Shown here: one piece after another, positions 45,674 to 52,323 of the stretch
Layout: each line of letters opens with the position of its first letter
Position numbering within the stretch: position 1 is the first letter of the stretch
From: Caulobacteraceae bacterium
GTDB lineage: Bacteria; Pseudomonadota; Alphaproteobacteria; Caulobacterales; Caulobacteraceae
NCBI GenBank assembly: GCA_030446805.1
Contig: JAUJMO010000001.1
Coordinates: 1,400,980 to 1,464,979 of the forward strand
Direction: 5' to 3'
Length of the DNA: 64,000 bases
Notes under the pieces: model-generated
What the model was told of the DNA's origin: nothing
Database searches by the model: none
The model's input: only the letters and a program-made list of their open reading frames with translations
Position numbers and translations under genes: made by a program

Positions 45674-46843
45674 TCAGGCCGTCGCCGCCCGGTTCAGGTT
45701 CAGCACCTCGCCGGTGAGGCTGCTCAGGTTGCGCTGGCGAATGGCGGCGCCGGCCTCGTCGAACAGGAACGGCAAGCAAGCGTAACGACGCCCCCGCGTC
45801 ACAGGCATGGCTTCGTGCAGGAGGGAGCATGAGAACACGACGGCGCCCCCGGTCGGTGCGCGGTAGGTGCGGTCTCCGAACTCCGGGAAGCGAAGCTCGC
45901 CGCCGTCGTAGTCCTCCGCGTTGAGATTGATCGTCACCGCGAACCGCCGGTGCGCCGTGGCGGGACTGGTGTCGTCGCGATGCGCCCGGAAGAACCCGCC
46001 TGAGTCCGCGTCGTAGCAGGCCACGAGGAAGCGCTCCACGCGTGTCACATTGAACTGGAAAGCCTTCTTGATCTCGGGGAGAAGCCGGGCGCCGAGCCGG
46101 TCCCGGATGGCGTCGCGGTAGGGCCGGAACGTCTCGCCGTGGTCCATGTTGAGGTCCCGCCGCCGCTTGAAGCTGTGGTCCATCACCCCGATCGTGGCGC
46201 CGTCACGCTCGCGCATGAAGCCCGAGTCCGATCCACCGTGCTCGTCGTAGAGCCGTACCAGCTCCCGGCAGAAATCCCCTTCGAAGAGGCGAGGGAGCAC
46301 CAGAACGGGGGCGTGGCCGGGCAGCCCGCCATGCAGATCCGGCTCGGGCAAGGCCTCGATCGCCTCCGCAAAGGCGCGCTCATGCCGCTCGGGAGCCTCG
46401 AACGGCAGGTTGGCGATGACGCGCATCATGGGATCGAGGATGAGTGTGAAGCCATTGTGCACATCCACCGGTTTCCCGCTCCCCCCCGGGGCCGGTTGGC
46501 TTACTGCGCCGTAGGGCCTGCTGACCGCACGGTCGAAGTCCCAGAAATGGCGGATCCCGGGCAGGCTTTGCCGGACCCGCTGCTGCGCCTCGTCCTGGGG
46601 ATCGATGCTGACGCCGAAGAAGGAGGCGAAGCGATCGTTGAATCGGTGGCGATGCCGCGAGGTCAGGAGCTCGAGAAGCTTCCGATTCTTCTCCAGGCCC
46701 GCCGAGCCGAAAAAGCAGAGCACGAGGTAACGTCCGGCCGCGGTGGAGAACGCGTATCGTGGGTTGTTGGTGGACCGGCACTCGAAATCAGGAACAGGGT
46801 CCCCAGGCTGGAGTGGAAGTCGAGCGGCCCGTCCATCGTTCAC
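45674..46843 (-). CDS. redoxin-like domain fused to a 2OG-Fe(II) prolyl-hydroxylase-type domain
   Basis: 389 residues. The N-terminal part (about 10-160) has the redoxin fold outline (PGDPVPDFECRSTNN, FFGVSIDPQDEAQQRVRQSLPGIRHFWDFD) but the peroxidatic Cys motif is replaced by LCFFGSAGLEKN, so a peroxidase activity is unlikely. The C-terminal half (about 240-375) is a Fe(II)/2-oxoglutarate dioxygenase: HRDDTSPAT (HxD), DYDGGELRFPEFG, VVFSCSLLHEAMPVTRGRRYACLPFLFDE (distal His and 2OG Arg). This two-domain order is found in some uncharacterised proteins. Substrate unknown. Confidence 0.83.
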   Translation of the reverse strand: MNDGRAARLPLQPGDPVPDFECRSTNNPRYAFSTAAGRYLVLCFFGSAGLEKNRKLLELLTSRHRHRFNDRFASFFGVSIDPQDEAQQRVRQSLPGIRHFWDFDRAVSRPYGAVSQPAPGGSGKPVDVHNGFTLILDPMMRVIANLPFEAPERHERAFAEAIEALPEPDLHGGLPGHAPVLVLPRLFEGDFCRELVRLYDEHGGSDSGFMRERDGATIGVMDHSFKRRRDLNMDHGETFRPYRDAIRDRLGARLLPEIKKAFQFNVTRVERFLVACYDADSGGFFRAHRDDTSPATAHRRFAVTINLNAEDYDGGELRFPEFGDRTYRAPTGGAVVFSCSLLHEAMPVTRGRRYACLPFLFDEAGAAIRQRNLSSLTGEVLNLNRAATA

Positions 46844-48615: not shown

Positions 48616-48873
48616 GTGGGGCTGCGTTGGACGGAAGCTAAAGACAGGTACCTTCGTGAGCATGCGGACGAGGGCTTGGAGCGGCTAGCCACAGCCTTGA
48701 GGCGCACCACGGCCGCCGTCCGGGAAAGAGGCCGGCGGTCTCGGACGGCCGGTTGGTCGTACACCGGCGCCCGCAGACCAGGTAAGGCAAACCCGAAAAC
48801 GCTTCTGAGATCGGCTGCACGCTTGTTCGCTCCCGTCGGGCCGACCCGGCTAGCGGAGACAAGTCAGCCCTAG
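48616..48873 (+). CDS. small helix-turn-helix-like protein, 3' end replaced by an IS6 scar
   Basis: 85 residues from GTG 48616: RWTEAKDRYLREHADEGLERLATALRRTTAAVRERGRR is a Myb/SANT-like or Trp-led HTH pattern. The body then runs into IS6 right-end-type sequence near 48810 (AARLFAPVGPTRLAETSQP), so the natural C-terminus is lost. Function uncertain. Confidence 0.5.
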   Translation: MGLRWTEAKDRYLREHADEGLERLATALRRTTAAVRERGRRSRTAGWSYTGARRPGKANPKTLLRSAARLFAPVGPTRLAETSQP

Positions 48874-48884
48874 CCTGATAGCAC
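48855..48884. repeat. isolated IS6 right end (scar)
   Basis: Matches the IS6 terminal sequence at 35335-35364 with a few differences (AAGTCAGCCCTAGCCTGATAGCAC). Subterminal similarity extends back to about 48815. Other scars: 37902-37931 (with truncated transposase) and 47093-47122. Confidence 0.8.
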
Positions 48885-48897
48885 GCCATCCACCCCG

Positions 48898-49040
48898 CTC
48901 TCCCCGGCGAGAGCCGGGGTCCACGTCGCGGCCTACGGGCGGAGTGTCTCGGCCAGTCCGGCGGGCCCCCGGCCCGCAATCAGATCACCTCACGGCGCGC
49001 GCGCGGGCGCGCCGTGGACCCCGGCTTCCGCCGGGGAGAG
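48898..49040. repeat. extragenic inverted-pair element, copy 4
   Basis: Left core CCCCGGCGAGAGCCGGGG (48902-48919) and right core CCCCGGCTTCCGCCGGGG (49019-49036), enclosing 99 bases; 143 bases overall. It lies immediately after the IS6 scar. No gene in 48874-49173. Confidence 0.8.
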
Positions 49041-49173
49041 TGGGAGGTGGAGGAGCCGGACGCCAAGGTGGTTCCAGGCGGGGAGCTCCCACCAGGAGGC
49101 CGGCCTCGAGGATTCCTCGTTTCCACTCTACCCACCTTCCAAACCGTCGCTGCACCCGACCCATCCCTAGTCC

Positions 49174-49719
49174 TCACAGCCACCTCGGAAGCGGGCGCTT
49201 CGCCGGAGCCGCAGCCACCTCACGCGGTGCAACCGCCGGCTCGGCCGCCTGAACGGGCGCGGGATTGGGGACGGCCGACACCGGCGTCAGCACCTTGCCG
49301 CCGACGGAGGTGGCCACGCCGCGCAGCTTCTCCACCGTGCGCGAGGCCGACAGGCCCAGCATGCCCATCAGCACGGGATAGATCGCCTCGGGCGGCAACG
49401 ACGGCGGCTCCACCACCACGCCGCAGAGCGCCGCGATCCAGTTGACCAGCGGGGCGATGATCCAGGTCCAGGCCAAAGCGACGGCGCAGCACCAGCCCAC
49501 CGCCGGGCGCCAGCCGGCCACGAACAGATTGGCGTGCCGGGCCTCCTCCGTGTTCACGCCCACCTGGGCGGCTGTCAGCGCGTCCTCGCGCGCGTCGGCG
49601 CGGTCGGCGAGTTCGGCCAGCTTGAGCTCGAACTCGGCGCGCTTCTCAGGGTTCGGAATGACTTGGCGCAGCGTGGCGCCGACTTCGCGGATGACATCGC
49701 CCAGGATGGGAAGGCCCAC
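49174..49719 (-). CDS. holin-like protein (GTA/3-TM holin family)
   Basis: 181 residues. An N-terminal amphipathic region (LGDVIREVGATLRQVIPNPEKRAEFELKLAELA), then membrane segments (about 68-85 WRPAVGWCCAVALAWTWII; 90-105; 112-125 YPVLMGMLGLSASR) and a Pro/Ala-rich tail. The FVAGWRPAVGW motif is the hallmark of the 3-TM holins of phages and GTAs. It follows the lysozyme by 3 bases on the same strand, forming a lysis cassette. Confidence 0.85.
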   Translation of the reverse strand: MGLPILGDVIREVGATLRQVIPNPEKRAEFELKLAELADRADAREDALTAAQVGVNTEEARHANLFVAGWRPAVGWCCAVALAWTWIIAPLVNWIAALCGVVVEPPSLPPEAIYPVLMGMLGLSASRTVEKLRGVATSVGGKVLTPVSAVPNPAPVQAAEPAVAPREVAAAPAKRPLPRWL

Positions 49720-49722
49720 GGC

Positions 49723-50148
49723 TCAGCCCTCGCGCATCATGGCGATCAGCCGGGTGGCCCGGGCGCCGACCTGGCGGGCCCATTTGCTGCCGGCCATGCC
49801 GCGGGCGGCCCCGTCGTAGTCGCCGGCCTGGATCCGGGTCAGTGTGTTCTTGAAACTGCGCAGGCCGCGGGTGTCGTTGCCGATGCCCATGTTGAAGCAC
49901 AGGTTCACCATCACGCGCTGACGCACCGGCGACAGCTTGCGCCACCAGGGCAGATGCTTGTCGAGATCGGCGACCGAGCGGGTGATGTCGTTGGCCAGCA
50001 GGTAGTCGATCTCATCGTCCGACAGGCCCACGTCGTCGAGGTTGCGCCCCGCGCCGATGGACAGCTTTCCGGCCGTGCAGCGATAGGGCTTGCGGCGCAC
50101 GCCCTCGTCGCGGCGCAGCTCGGCGATCAGCAGTTCGTTGGGATCCAT
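49723..50148 (-). CDS. phage-type lysozyme (glycoside hydrolase family 24-like)
   Basis: 141 residues: LIAELRRDEGVRRKPYRCTAGKLSIGAGRNLDD (catalytic Glu in RRDEG; T4-like Asp/Thr region in TAGKLSIGAGRN), LSPVRQRVMVNLCFNMG, and a helical C-terminus. It cleaves peptidoglycan. No signal peptide, so release would depend on the adjacent holin. Overlaps by one base with the gene upstream (ATG within TGATG). Confidence 0.88.
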   Translation of the reverse strand: MDPNELLIAELRRDEGVRRKPYRCTAGKLSIGAGRNLDDVGLSDDEIDYLLANDITRSVADLDKHLPWWRKLSPVRQRVMVNLCFNMGIGNDTRGLRSFKNTLTRIQAGDYDGAARGMAGSKWARQVGARATRLIAMMREG

Positions 50149-50552
50149 CAGGCGACCTCGTGTTTCCAGCCGCCAAAGGCGTGGCTGTTCTCATGGCAGG
50201 CGAGCTGTCCGAAGCGGTCCGCTGCAAAGCCCGCGCACGGGTCCGGCATGACCACCACCGGCACGGGCACGCCGTCCACCCGGGTGGCGCAGGCCTGGGC
50301 CTCGGGGTTGCCGCACAGCCGGGCGACCTGGTCGGGCGCCGTGAAGATGACCAGCGCGCTCCCCTGCCCGCGCATGAAGCGCACCGGAGGCTTCTGCACC
50401 CACCAGCCGCCGTTCGCGGGGTCGTCGATCCACAGCAGGGGCGCGGCGGGCGCCGGCGGCAGGGGCGGCGGTCCGGCGGTGGCGATGCAGCCGATCAGGG
50501 CCAGGGAGGCCGAGATCCAAAGCGTGACGACGATGGCGACCAGGCGGTTCAT
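50148..50552 (-). CDS. lipoprotein with a C-terminal HExxH motif, in the lysis cassette
   Basis: 134 residues: a signal (VAIVVTLWISASLALIGC) with lipobox LIGC, a Pro-rich stretch (PPPLPPAPAAP) and a C-terminal domain ending LACHENSHAFGGWKHE. The HENSH part is His120-Glu121-x-x-His124, with His131 as possible third ligand, a metallopeptidase-type motif. There are also four cysteines (CGNPEAQAC, DPC, AC). It overlaps the coiled-coil gene (ATGA) and the lysozyme gene. Possible roles: outer-membrane spanin-like lipoprotein or peptidase. Not recognised as a known family. Confidence 0.65.
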   Translation of the reverse strand: MNRLVAIVVTLWISASLALIGCIATAGPPPLPPAPAAPLLWIDDPANGGWWVQKPPVRFMRGQGSALVIFTAPDQVARLCGNPEAQACATRVDGVPVPVVVMPDPCAGFAADRFGQLACHENSHAFGGWKHEVA

Positions 50553-50917
50553 GGGGCCTCCCGACGAACGATGTTGCGGCCCAGCGCCACCTGGTTCTGC
50601 TTCACATTGCGAACCTCGTGCTTGAGGTCGCGCAGCTGCTCGGTGGTGTGGCTGGTGGACAGATCCACGCGGCCGGAAAGCGCGCGGACGTCGGCGCTCA
50701 CCGTGGCGATCGAAGCGGCGACCTGGCTGAAGGCGTCGACCCGGCGGTCCAGCCGTTCGACGTCGCGGACGCGCTCCAGCTTCTCCGTCGCGACATCTTC
50801 ACAGGCGGCCTCGGCCCGGGTCTGGACGCGATAGGTCCAGCGCACGAGCAGGCCCAGGCCGGCCGCCAGCAGCGGCACGGCGATCCCCATGGCAGCGATC
50901 CAATCACCCGTGTCCAT
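50549..50917 (-). CDS. membrane-anchored coiled-coil protein of the lysis cassette
   Basis: 122 residues: one membrane helix (about 8-26, IAAMGIAVPLLAAGLGLLVRW) then a long helix (about 35-115) with heptads (EKLERVRDVERLDRRVDAFSQVAASIATVSADVRALSGRVDL). This matches DUF2730-like/Rz-like proteins in position and outline: an N-terminal anchor and periplasmic coiled coil, as in inner-membrane spanin subunits. First gene of the four-gene lysis cassette. Confidence 0.65.
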   Translation of the reverse strand: MDTGDWIAAMGIAVPLLAAGLGLLVRWTYRVQTRAEAACEDVATEKLERVRDVERLDRRVDAFSQVAASIATVSADVRALSGRVDLSTSHTTEQLRDLKHEVRNVKQNQVALGRNIVRREAP

Positions 50918-50953
50918 GGCGCAAGACGGCGGGGCGTTTCGGTTACCGGGGTG

Positions 50954-51712
50954 TTACCCCGAGGGCTGATCCGCCCGCCGAGCGGCGCGCAGGTATTTAT
51001 GCAGCACATTGTCGTTCCGGATCCGGTACCGGACGGTGGCCGCCTCGACGGCGGCATGCTCCAGATGAGCCAGGGACAGGTAGAAGCGCTTGTCGGCGCT
51101 ATAACTTAGGTTTCCCTTGAGGGTCTGCGCCCACTGCCCGAAGTGGTGGGCCGCCTTGGCCTTGTCGACGATCAGGCAGTTCGGATCCACAAACCCGGGC
51201 TCGGGCGGAAGCGCCTCGAAGTCGACCGCAGCCTCGGTGGAGATGCGTCCGCGGCCGGGTCCGACCGAGTCCCAGATGTCGACACCGAGGTCGGCGTCGG
51301 ACTCGTCATCGACGAGCATCCGGCGTGACCAGGCCCAGATCTTACCCTCCACTGCAGCCGTCAAGAGCCGGAGGTGGTCTTCGAGCCAGGTGTTGTCGTC
51401 GTCGAGGTAGGCCACCAGGCGCGCGTTCGCGATCAGGCTCAGAACGGCCCGGAGCGAGCCCCCGTCCGCCGGTGCGTGCACGCCCCCATGCAGCTGGGAG
51501 GTCGAGTAAGGCAGGCGAAGAAACAGGGCGGAGACGTTGGCGGGACGTTGCTCCAGCTTGGCGCCAAGAGGCTCCAAGTCGTGCAGCTTCCTGTCGACGC
51601 CGATGAGCACCTGGATCCGTCCCGGGAAGCTCTGGGCGTAGATCGACTCCAGCGCGCGAACGATGCTGGGACGGCCCACCGTCGGCATAACCACGGCCAC
51701 ATCCGCCGGCAT
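50954..51712 (-). CDS. GT2-like glycosyltransferase
   Basis: 252 residues from ATG 51712 (MPADVAVVMPTVGRPSIVRALESIYAQ); an upstream TTG at 51751 is possible. GT-A features: VVMPTVGRPSIVRAL, LIGVDRKL, DDDNTW (DxD) in RLVAYLDDDNTWLEDH. GT2 enzymes use nucleotide-sugar donors to make cell-surface glycans. Unusual for position beside a lysis cassette on the same strand, but 36 bases of spacing do not prove linkage. Confidence 0.75.
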   Translation of the reverse strand: MPADVAVVMPTVGRPSIVRALESIYAQSFPGRIQVLIGVDRKLHDLEPLGAKLEQRPANVSALFLRLPYSTSQLHGGVHAPADGGSLRAVLSLIANARLVAYLDDDNTWLEDHLRLLTAAVEGKIWAWSRRMLVDDESDADLGVDIWDSVGPGRGRISTEAAVDFEALPPEPGFVDPNCLIVDKAKAAHHFGQWAQTLKGNLSYSADKRFYLSLAHLEHAAVEAATVRYRIRNDNVLHKYLRAARRADQPSG

Positions 51713-51764
51713 CTGCGGATGCGCGTTGTCGGGCAGATACAGGGCGACCAAGGGGTTCGGCCTC

Positions 51765-52040
51765 TTAGCTGAAAGCCGTGGAGTTCCGCACAGCCGCCTG
51801 CCGCGAGATCTCCTCGGCCAGATCGTGCAGCCCCGCCCCAAGCCGGGCGGCGTTGAAGCCCTCGTCCAGCAACCGTTCCAGGATCAGCCGCACCATCTGC
51901 TCCGCGACGTCGCCGCGCACCTCCTCGCTTTGGGCTCGCAGCAGCGGCTCCAAGTCGTCCATCAAGCGCTCCACCCGGATCACCGCGGCCGTCATGGCCG
52001 GGGTCTCGAGATCAACGCGCAGGGGCGAAGCGTGCGACAT
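51765..52040 (-). CDS. small helical protein of unknown function
   Basis: 91 residues, almost entirely helix-forming (VIRVERLMDDLEPLLRAQSEEVRGDVAEQMVRLILERLLDEGFNAARLGAGLHDLAEEI). No motif recognised. It lies upstream of the GT2-like gene and points the same way; the frames do not overlap. Confidence 0.55.
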   Translation of the reverse strand: MSHASPLRVDLETPAMTAAVIRVERLMDDLEPLLRAQSEEVRGDVAEQMVRLILERLLDEGFNAARLGAGLHDLAEEISRQAAVRNSTAFS

Positions 52041-52323
52041 GCTTGTTCCTCGGCGAGCAACGGCCCGCGGCGCCGATATAGGCGCGGCGCCCGGGAAAGG
52101 GCGCCCGCGTGGCTCTCTTCAACGCGGCCCGACCCTGGCGCCAGCCTCCGGCGTCAACGGGCGCGCCCTTCCAACTCTCGAGTCTGGCTGTAGGCTGGCT
52201 CTCGGGAGAGGGTTCTGTCATGCGACGCTTGATGCTGAATTTCCTTGCGCCGGCGCGTCTCGCCGCCGCCACGGGCCCGACGCCGCCGCGCCGATCGGGC
52301 GGCCCGGCTGAGGTCGCCGGGCG
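52041..52323. other. 283-base gap before the oxoprolinase gene
   Basis: Two short ORFs here (e.g. from 52220) lack features and look spurious; the promoter of the oxoprolinase operon presumably lies in this gap. Confidence 0.4.

Follow-up and report, generated by a model that had tools for sequence, protein, structure and literature searches.

A four-gene phage lysis cassette stands as a lone insert in the chromosome of a Caulobacteraceae bacterium (GCA_030446805.1; own genome, G000; 3.04 Mb, 6 contigs, 99% complete), within a 64,000-nt stretch (C1:1400980-1464979) that, at its full length, we call the window. With a probability of roughly 0.68, we read this cassette as the lysis module of an SU10-type provirus whose parts are dispersed. 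That provirus is more probably a remnant, its lysis genes still intact, than a functioning gene transfer agent (GTA). Genome-wide we found only one SU10 portal and one PF03237 terminase, the latter in two pieces, and the lysis, head-tail and early/terminase genes lie at separate sites, not in a contiguous provirus, on the same strand and in phage order. Because these pieces are complementary without overlap, agree in strand and order, and include a single portal and a single terminase, we infer that they derive from one phage.

The cassette consists of genes for a small membrane protein, an exported protein with an HExxH motif, a lysozyme and a holin (Table 1). The tight packing of four minus-strand genes in the original prediction was borne out, with all four open reading frames (ORFs) in place: the membrane-protein and HExxH genes overlap by 4 bases, the HExxH and lysozyme genes overlap by 1 base, and 3 bases separate the lysozyme and holin genes. 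The predicted holin matched PF11351 (E 5.4e-20; 72.6 bits against a Pfam cut-off of 24.8) and the holin family phrog_3427 (E 1.4e-29), and the predicted lysozyme matched PF00959 (E 2e-10; 41.5 bits against a cut-off of 22.3) and the endolysin family phrog_7 (E 4e-21); these family matches pass both Pfam cut-offs and are far beyond chance. No signal sequence was seen by eye in the lysozyme, which should therefore need the holin. The membrane protein matched best to phrog_736, a family of unknown function (E 0.0044), and more weakly to the Rz-like spanin family phrog_1403 (E 0.073). Among 50,697 phage records, no match was found for the HExxH protein and none for the membrane protein.

Comparison with G001, the only same-genus genome among those searched (93% complete, about 150 contigs), established the lone insertion. 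Both cassette flanks align at 94% to one G001 contig (C137, L152), with 18 unmatched bases there against 3,251 here. The description of the cassette as stand-alone is thus upheld, phage structural genes being found elsewhere in the same genome. A full prophage just outside the cassette, which had been named as a possible refutation, was looked for and is ruled out, the DNA on both sides being syntenic in G001. G001 has no lysozyme relative at E 0.001, a threshold at which 21 of 198 genomes, the own genome included, have one. At loci from four other genera (L154-L157), a hydantoinase relative (69-73% identity) was found with no cassette match at E 1e-6; at none of them was a left-side gene seen, and at two (L155, L157) no other window gene was, so that only one flank could be compared. 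As had been predicted, no structural phage gene was found inside the window: the portal and terminase families match only outside it or nowhere.

The head-tail block lies at C1:1538.9-1553.4 kb, 86 kb from the cassette and on the same strand. It encodes an SU10 portal (PF23899, C1:1551560-1553362, E 1.7e-164) and an SU10 major capsid protein (MCP; PF17236, E 2.3e-88). At E 0.001, 4 of 198 genomes had a match to the SU10 portal profile, and in 3 of them, the own genome included, it was over the cut-off. A search with the portal protein itself at E 1e-10 gave matches in 5 of the 390 genomes from the family, and no portal match was found in G001. Three genomes with SU10-type prophage regions used for comparison (G239, G333 and G364; the fourth is G040) carry relatives of the portal, scaffold, MCP and virion genes consecutively in one stretch, as judged for G333 from the genes listed. 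The terminase (PF03237, PF17289; C1:1573025-1574720) belongs to a further block with DUF1376, GcrA-like and helix-turn-helix genes, separated from the portal by ~19 kb of other genes. This block is extra DNA relative to G001 (6,587 bases here, 103 there). Its terminase large subunit is divided between two ORFs, one for the ATPase and one for the nuclease; a ~77-codon ORF lies between them, and the stop and start codons overlap.

The closest viral-contig relative of the lysis genes and of the head-tail block is one and the same contig, L093 (IMGVR_UViG_3300041964_000201). Portal, p106, scaffold, MCP, p102, p208, virion protein and p74 are 62-85% identical between the block and L093 (portal 82%, MCP 85%); for the tail genes, identity is lower and the matches are broken up. 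In L093, genes for an SU10 portal (PF23899, E 8e-167), an SU10 MCP (PF17236, E 4e-87), tail proteins and a PhyH protein are followed by those for a small membrane protein, an HExxH protein and a lysozyme that is 82% identical to the window lysozyme, so the lysis module is linked to SU10-type structural genes in this relative. The L093 gene in the membrane-protein position matches the Rz-like spanin family phrog_89 (E 9e-4) and its product is 32% identical to the window protein. The HExxH protein has relatives of 59-60% identity on L093 (59%) and on L094 (IMGVR_UViG_3300041964_000210), two viral contigs from one sample (3300041964). In L094 a GH108 gene follows the HExxH gene, and the contig also encodes a Phage_capsid_3 protein, an integrase (PF22022, E 1e-19) and a relative of the glycosyltransferase-like ORF of the insert. 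Because both have relatives on L093, the lysis and head-tail pieces are tied together more firmly than either is to the terminase.

In L093, the scaffold, p167 and tail genes contain frame changes. Phage genes of both L093 and L094 show several such changes, which may be sequencing errors of sample 3300041964.

Several results weigh against a single dispersed provirus or against its being a remnant. The terminase halves had no tblastn match at E 0.01 in three SU10-type prophage regions and none at 1e-3 in L093 or L094; the terminase block may therefore come from another phage. The right flank of the head-tail block has no close match in G001, so an empty site is not demonstrable there. In the large tail gene, the start lies in another frame and a 100-base gap lies inside the gene, which does not explain the one frame change. 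Most phage ORFs in the pieces are open, and for a remnant one would expect heavier damage than is seen.

Other routes to the dispersed arrangement were considered and set aside. One prophage split by inserted host DNA is ruled out for the lysis and terminase pieces, whose flank pairs are both joined in G001; the test leaves the head-tail block undecided because of its right flank. Phage DNA left behind in G001 would point to a deletion there, but a search for such a scar at the terminase site gave unconvincing scores: the best score was 24 for the left insert end, compared to 23 for 95% of 200 shuffles and 26 for their maximum, and for the whole insert it was 24 compared to 27. The ends of the phage pieces have no repeats in common beyond matches of 10-13 bases.

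We also compared phage genes of the own genome with those of L093. NG86 dN/dS (the ratio of nonsynonymous to synonymous substitution rates) was 0.255 for the portal, 0.381 for p106, 0.151 for the MCP, 0.176 for p102, 0.332 for the virion protein, 0.211 for the lysozyme and 0.38 for the HExxH protein; over phage branches these ratios mix phage and host history and do not show selection in the host. The value for the membrane protein (0.786, at 32% identity) is unreliable. Similarity to L093 reaches no more than 58 bases ahead of the portal start; beyond that point the sequences differ. A CtrA-like site, TTAA-N7-TTAG, lies at C1:1553470 on the minus strand, 57 bases upstream of the portal, and is present in L093 too; on both strands of a 199-kb region there are 2 such sites and none of TTAA-N7-TTAA, the form given as the CtrA consensus in the available part of PMC9437464. 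Upstream of the similarity edge, ~360 bases remain before the L093 contig ends, and they contain the terminal part of a beta-lactamase-like gene (PF00144, E 0.001, below the cut-off), while the own genome has other genes there; no terminase was recognised in this upstream sequence of either. Loss of a terminase from the same place in both was considered but is weakly founded, since the terminases placed by eye before the portal in G040, G239 and G364 were not confirmed by Pfam. Terminase candidates in G040, G239, G333 and G364 matched no Pfam family at E 0.01, and a terminase apart from the portal may therefore be normal for SU10-type phages.

The original prediction had pointed to a GTA, citing the three-transmembrane (3-TM) holin. 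A GTA of the RcGTA kind did not hold up: the own genome has no match to the portal family PF04860 and none to GTA_TIM (PF13547; one first-look candidate failed), both of which were positive in the Caulobacter vibrioides control, and an RcGTA cluster in the same genome was rejected on these absences. Nor is the holin a sign of one, as 48 of the 50,697 phage records match it, phages of Roseobacter, Vibrio and Alteromonas among them, and TeaA, the holin of ICP1, also has PF11351 according to the accessible text of PMC7182436; by its family matches, PF11351 is no GTA marker. We consider it very improbable that this lysis locus belongs to a canonical RcGTA-type GTA, a reading favoured by the naming of PF11351 for GTA release and by the encoding of holin and endolysin away from the main cluster in RcGTA (PMC6209664, in the part available), and opposed by the missing PF04860 and GTA_TIM matches in a 99%-complete genome with positive controls and by the wide occurrence of this holin family in phages. 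The search for a GTA structural cluster proposed with the original prediction had a divided outcome: no cluster of RcGTA type was found, and head-tail genes of SU10 type lie 86 kb from the cassette, so that something GTA-like built on another phage chassis is conceivable. We think it unlikely that the pieces form such a dispersed, domesticated SU10-type phage, producing a GTA-like particle from separate, co-expressed head-tail, terminase and lysis loci. The complementary, non-redundant pieces with their shared strand and phage order would fit domestication, as would the dN/dS of 0.15-0.38 for seven gene pairs and the start of L093 similarity at the portal edge with the CtrA-like site shared exactly there. 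However, the site has one mismatch to TTAA-N7-TTAA, the dN/dS values mix phage and host history, one tail gene has a frame change, Pfam did not confirm that intact SU10-type prophages have their terminase immediately ahead of the portal, G001 has empty sites and neither portal nor lysozyme match, and other genera lack the cassette beside the hydantoinase gene. Domestication would also fit the finding that the integrase-like genes of two SU10-type prophages matched nothing in the 199-kb region, a weak test because integrases diverge fast; the search covered called ORFs of three prophage regions, among them two PF00589-like genes, and gave no integrase match in the region, the whole genome not having been searched by family. 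The full form of the idea is a long shot: a young GTA-like system on an SU10-type short-tailed phage, encoded at three loci under CtrA control, with the HExxH protein as a new tether-cutting lysis factor.

The cassette might instead have been acquired independently of the head-tail block, for example as a lysis-only island or autolysis module. This too is improbable. It would account for the clean lone insert and for the 86 kb between cassette and block, and the first ORF of the insert starts ~25 bases from the segment boundary, so that a promoter would have to lie in host DNA; it is countered by the shared closest viral contig of the lysis genes and head-tail block, at similar identities (82% for lysozyme, 82% for portal, 85% for MCP). 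On balance we favour the lysis module of a dispersed SU10-type provirus.

The second cassette gene belongs to an unnamed family that recurs on viral contigs. The HENSH...KHE motif noted in the original prediction is present in the window protein. Its designation as a lipoprotein stands only for that protein, which has a lipobox-like LIGC; the trait is not conserved, the relative in L063 having AAGC and that in L064 none (by eye). Its description as a new combination in lysis cassettes was overturned, since relatives adjoin lysis genes in several phage contigs. The HExxH protein matched no Pfam, PHROG or NCBIfam model, and its close relatives share NGGWWVQ-PP-RFM-GQG, VMPDPC and CHE-SHAF-GWKHE in alignment. 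Weak matches occur in 18 of 119 genomes at E 0.01, the own genome included. Of 12 inspected loci from host relatives, 4 (L004, L005, L008, L015) encode secreted proteins of a broader family, recognisable by a PC ... CHExxH-GW core; these loci, of about 3 kb, contain none of the other window lysis genes by tblastn.

To sample the family further, we searched viral contigs for the DNA pattern MP[DN]PC-x(10-16)-CHExxH, which matched 20 stretches, all 20 in frame; the proteins of L168, L173 and L176 are identical, and L170, L171 and L172 are contigs included before this search. In an alignment of 19 members, P56, C80, C88 and W129 are invariant outside the pattern. H120, E121 and H124 are also invariant, and a further histidine, H131, is conserved at 90% or more; CHExxH was part of the search pattern for most aligned members, and H131 lies outside it. 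The HExxH gene is within 0.7 kb of a peptidoglycan-hydrolase gene in 7 of the 20 stretches. A same-strand lysozyme match lies at most 662 bases away in 6 of the 20, but four of these lysozymes had gone into the lysozyme profile and a fifth (L172) closely resembles the window lysozyme contained in it, leaving only L177 independent. Beyond that distance, the profile matched no lysozyme in any of the stretches. In L170, a GH108 gene overlaps the HExxH gene. Spanin-like genes lie 1.6-2.1 kb from the HExxH gene in L174, L183 and L184, the last matching phrog_1275 (E 1e-12) and the other two reaching only E 6e-4 to 9e-3, with best matches to families of unknown function. By lysozyme profile or by eye, with few neighbours scanned, no lysis gene was recognised in 10 of the 20 (L167, L168, L169, L173, L175, L176, L180, L182, L185, L186), L175 being a 4-kb fragment of the L177 kind.

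Five of the 19 members matched PF18818 (MPTase-PolyVal) below the cut-off (best E 0.0017), one of the 19 had a PHROG match, and no NCBIfam model matched in the six members scanned. A first AlphaFold2 model from 3 sequences was poor (pLDDT 55); the model from 19 sequences (pLDDT 74, pTM 0.45) places HExxH on a helix (113-127) after three strands, an arrangement seen in zincins. A fold search with this model gave no PDB or BFVD match at E 0.001 or better, a second-look fold comparison (VIA) returned two rows (Z 2.5 and 2.4), and no solved structure was found by sequence. Export and disulfide bonding are probable for the protein, whose motif resembles a zinc site, and its family is a candidate for an undescribed lysis function. 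Among the literature matches listed for lysis metallopeptidases, SU10-type GTAs, dispersed prophages and the holin family, none described such a system.

Holin and lysozyme make up a standard pair: if the cassette works as its families suggest, the holin would open the inner membrane and the lysozyme would cut the cell wall. The HExxH protein, with its own apparent export signal, could reach the periplasm independently of the holin and there, perhaps with the small membrane protein, might help to remove the last barrier, the outer membrane or a wall tether. The protein may also act outside lysis, given that no lysis gene was recognised in 10 of the 20 stretches.

Upstream of the cassette, the inserted segment contains two further ORFs. 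The 91-amino-acid ORF had one Pfam match, far below the cut-off, and no match in a PHROG search. The glycosyltransferase-like ORF had weak GT2 and phage glycosyltransferase matches (E 0.05 and 6.5e-4) and is 54-56% identical to a gene in L094 that is split over two frames; its true start is probably near 51712 (by eye), because the listed TTG overlaps the 91-amino-acid ORF. When ORFs of L093, L094 and four prophage regions were compared to the window (E 1e-4), only the cassette and this ORF were matched.

Table 1. Coordinates, in window positions, of the lysis cassette and of the inserted segment that carries it.
Feature	Position	Strand	Remarks
Small membrane protein, probable coiled coil (by eye)	50917-50549	minus	spanin-like by position only
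Exported HExxH protein (HENSH-AFGGWKHE)	50552-50148	minus	unnamed family, four conserved Cys
Phage lysozyme (putative endolysin)	50148-49723	minus	PF00959, phrog_7
Predicted 3-TM holin	49719-49174	minus	PF11351, phrog_3427
Glycosyltransferase-like ORF	51841-50954	minus	relative on L094, weak profile matches
91-amino-acid ORF, first gene of inserted segment	52040-51765	minus	ORF call
Inserted segment with whole cassette	48814-52064	minus	G001 alignment; right boundary good to about 15 bases

Some further features of the region were seen. Near both inner ends of the lysis insert is the 8-base sequence GCTTGTTC, seen by eye. A GC-rich repeat of ~30 bases is scattered in the genus, accounting for most of 58 matches in G001, and occurs, among other places, at C1 about 1558104-1558273 and at about 48.9-49.05 kb of the window, near the left end of the insert. 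A SelO gene (PF02696, E 8e-120; L093:13338-14969) lies between the portal and the next small gene of L093, and its slot is occupied in the own genome by a peroxiredoxin-2OG oxygenase gene (1549984-1551096). Look-alikes with AhpC/TSA and 2OG-Fe(II) oxygenase parts lie at window positions 45674-46843, C1:1511050-1512213 and C1:1549984-1551096 (first and third Pfam-checked), two of them close to phage pieces. An LLM-type flavin gene occurs twice, at C1:1501695-1502750 and 1564585-1565640, in opposite orientation, with equal length and the same sequence over the residues printed; the two copies bracket the head-tail block and are possible inversion ends. Between the lysis and head-tail pieces, 2,500 N at C1:1491480-1493979 adjoin a tRNA-Ala gene and perhaps represent a masked rRNA operon.

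Two points make this locus of interest: its pieces are dispersed, with clean empty sites, and its HExxH protein belongs to a family without a name. To our knowledge, it is not understood how the genes of domesticated phages end up at several sites of the host chromosome, and with two of the three phage pieces having clean empty sites in a same-genus genome, the dispersal step is open to direct study. The short HExxH family recurs beside endolysin genes in several different phage contigs, and its function can be tested by deletion and expression.

The arrangement can be set beside several known systems. Like Rz/Rz1 spanins, the cassette has a small membrane-protein gene that overlaps the gene of an exported protein next to an endolysin gene, but the HExxH protein has a zincin-like motif, four conserved cysteines and an unconserved lipobox, and the charges of the membrane protein do not clearly put its coil in the periplasm (by eye). 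The MPTase-PolyVal family is linked by its sub-threshold matches, whereas the HExxH members are small and exported, and none was shown to reach the cut-off. RcGTA-type GTAs likewise keep lysis genes away from structural genes (PMC6209664, available part) and have a PF11351 holin, but here there is no PF04860 portal and no GTA_TIM, and the chassis is SU10-type. The GTA release system LypABC of Caulobacter crescentus likewise concerns phage-like particles of an alphaproteobacterium; in the part of PMC13236601 available, no canonical holin-endolysin genes were found and lysis needs LypABC, whereas a classical holin and lysozyme are predicted here. Closest are the SU10-type phages and prophages of G040, G239, G333, G364 and L093, with related portal and MCP genes in the same gene order, lysis genes directly behind the tail genes in L093, and portal and lysozyme relatives 18 kb apart on one contig in G040; they differ in that here the lysis, head-tail and terminase pieces lie at separate chromosomal sites.

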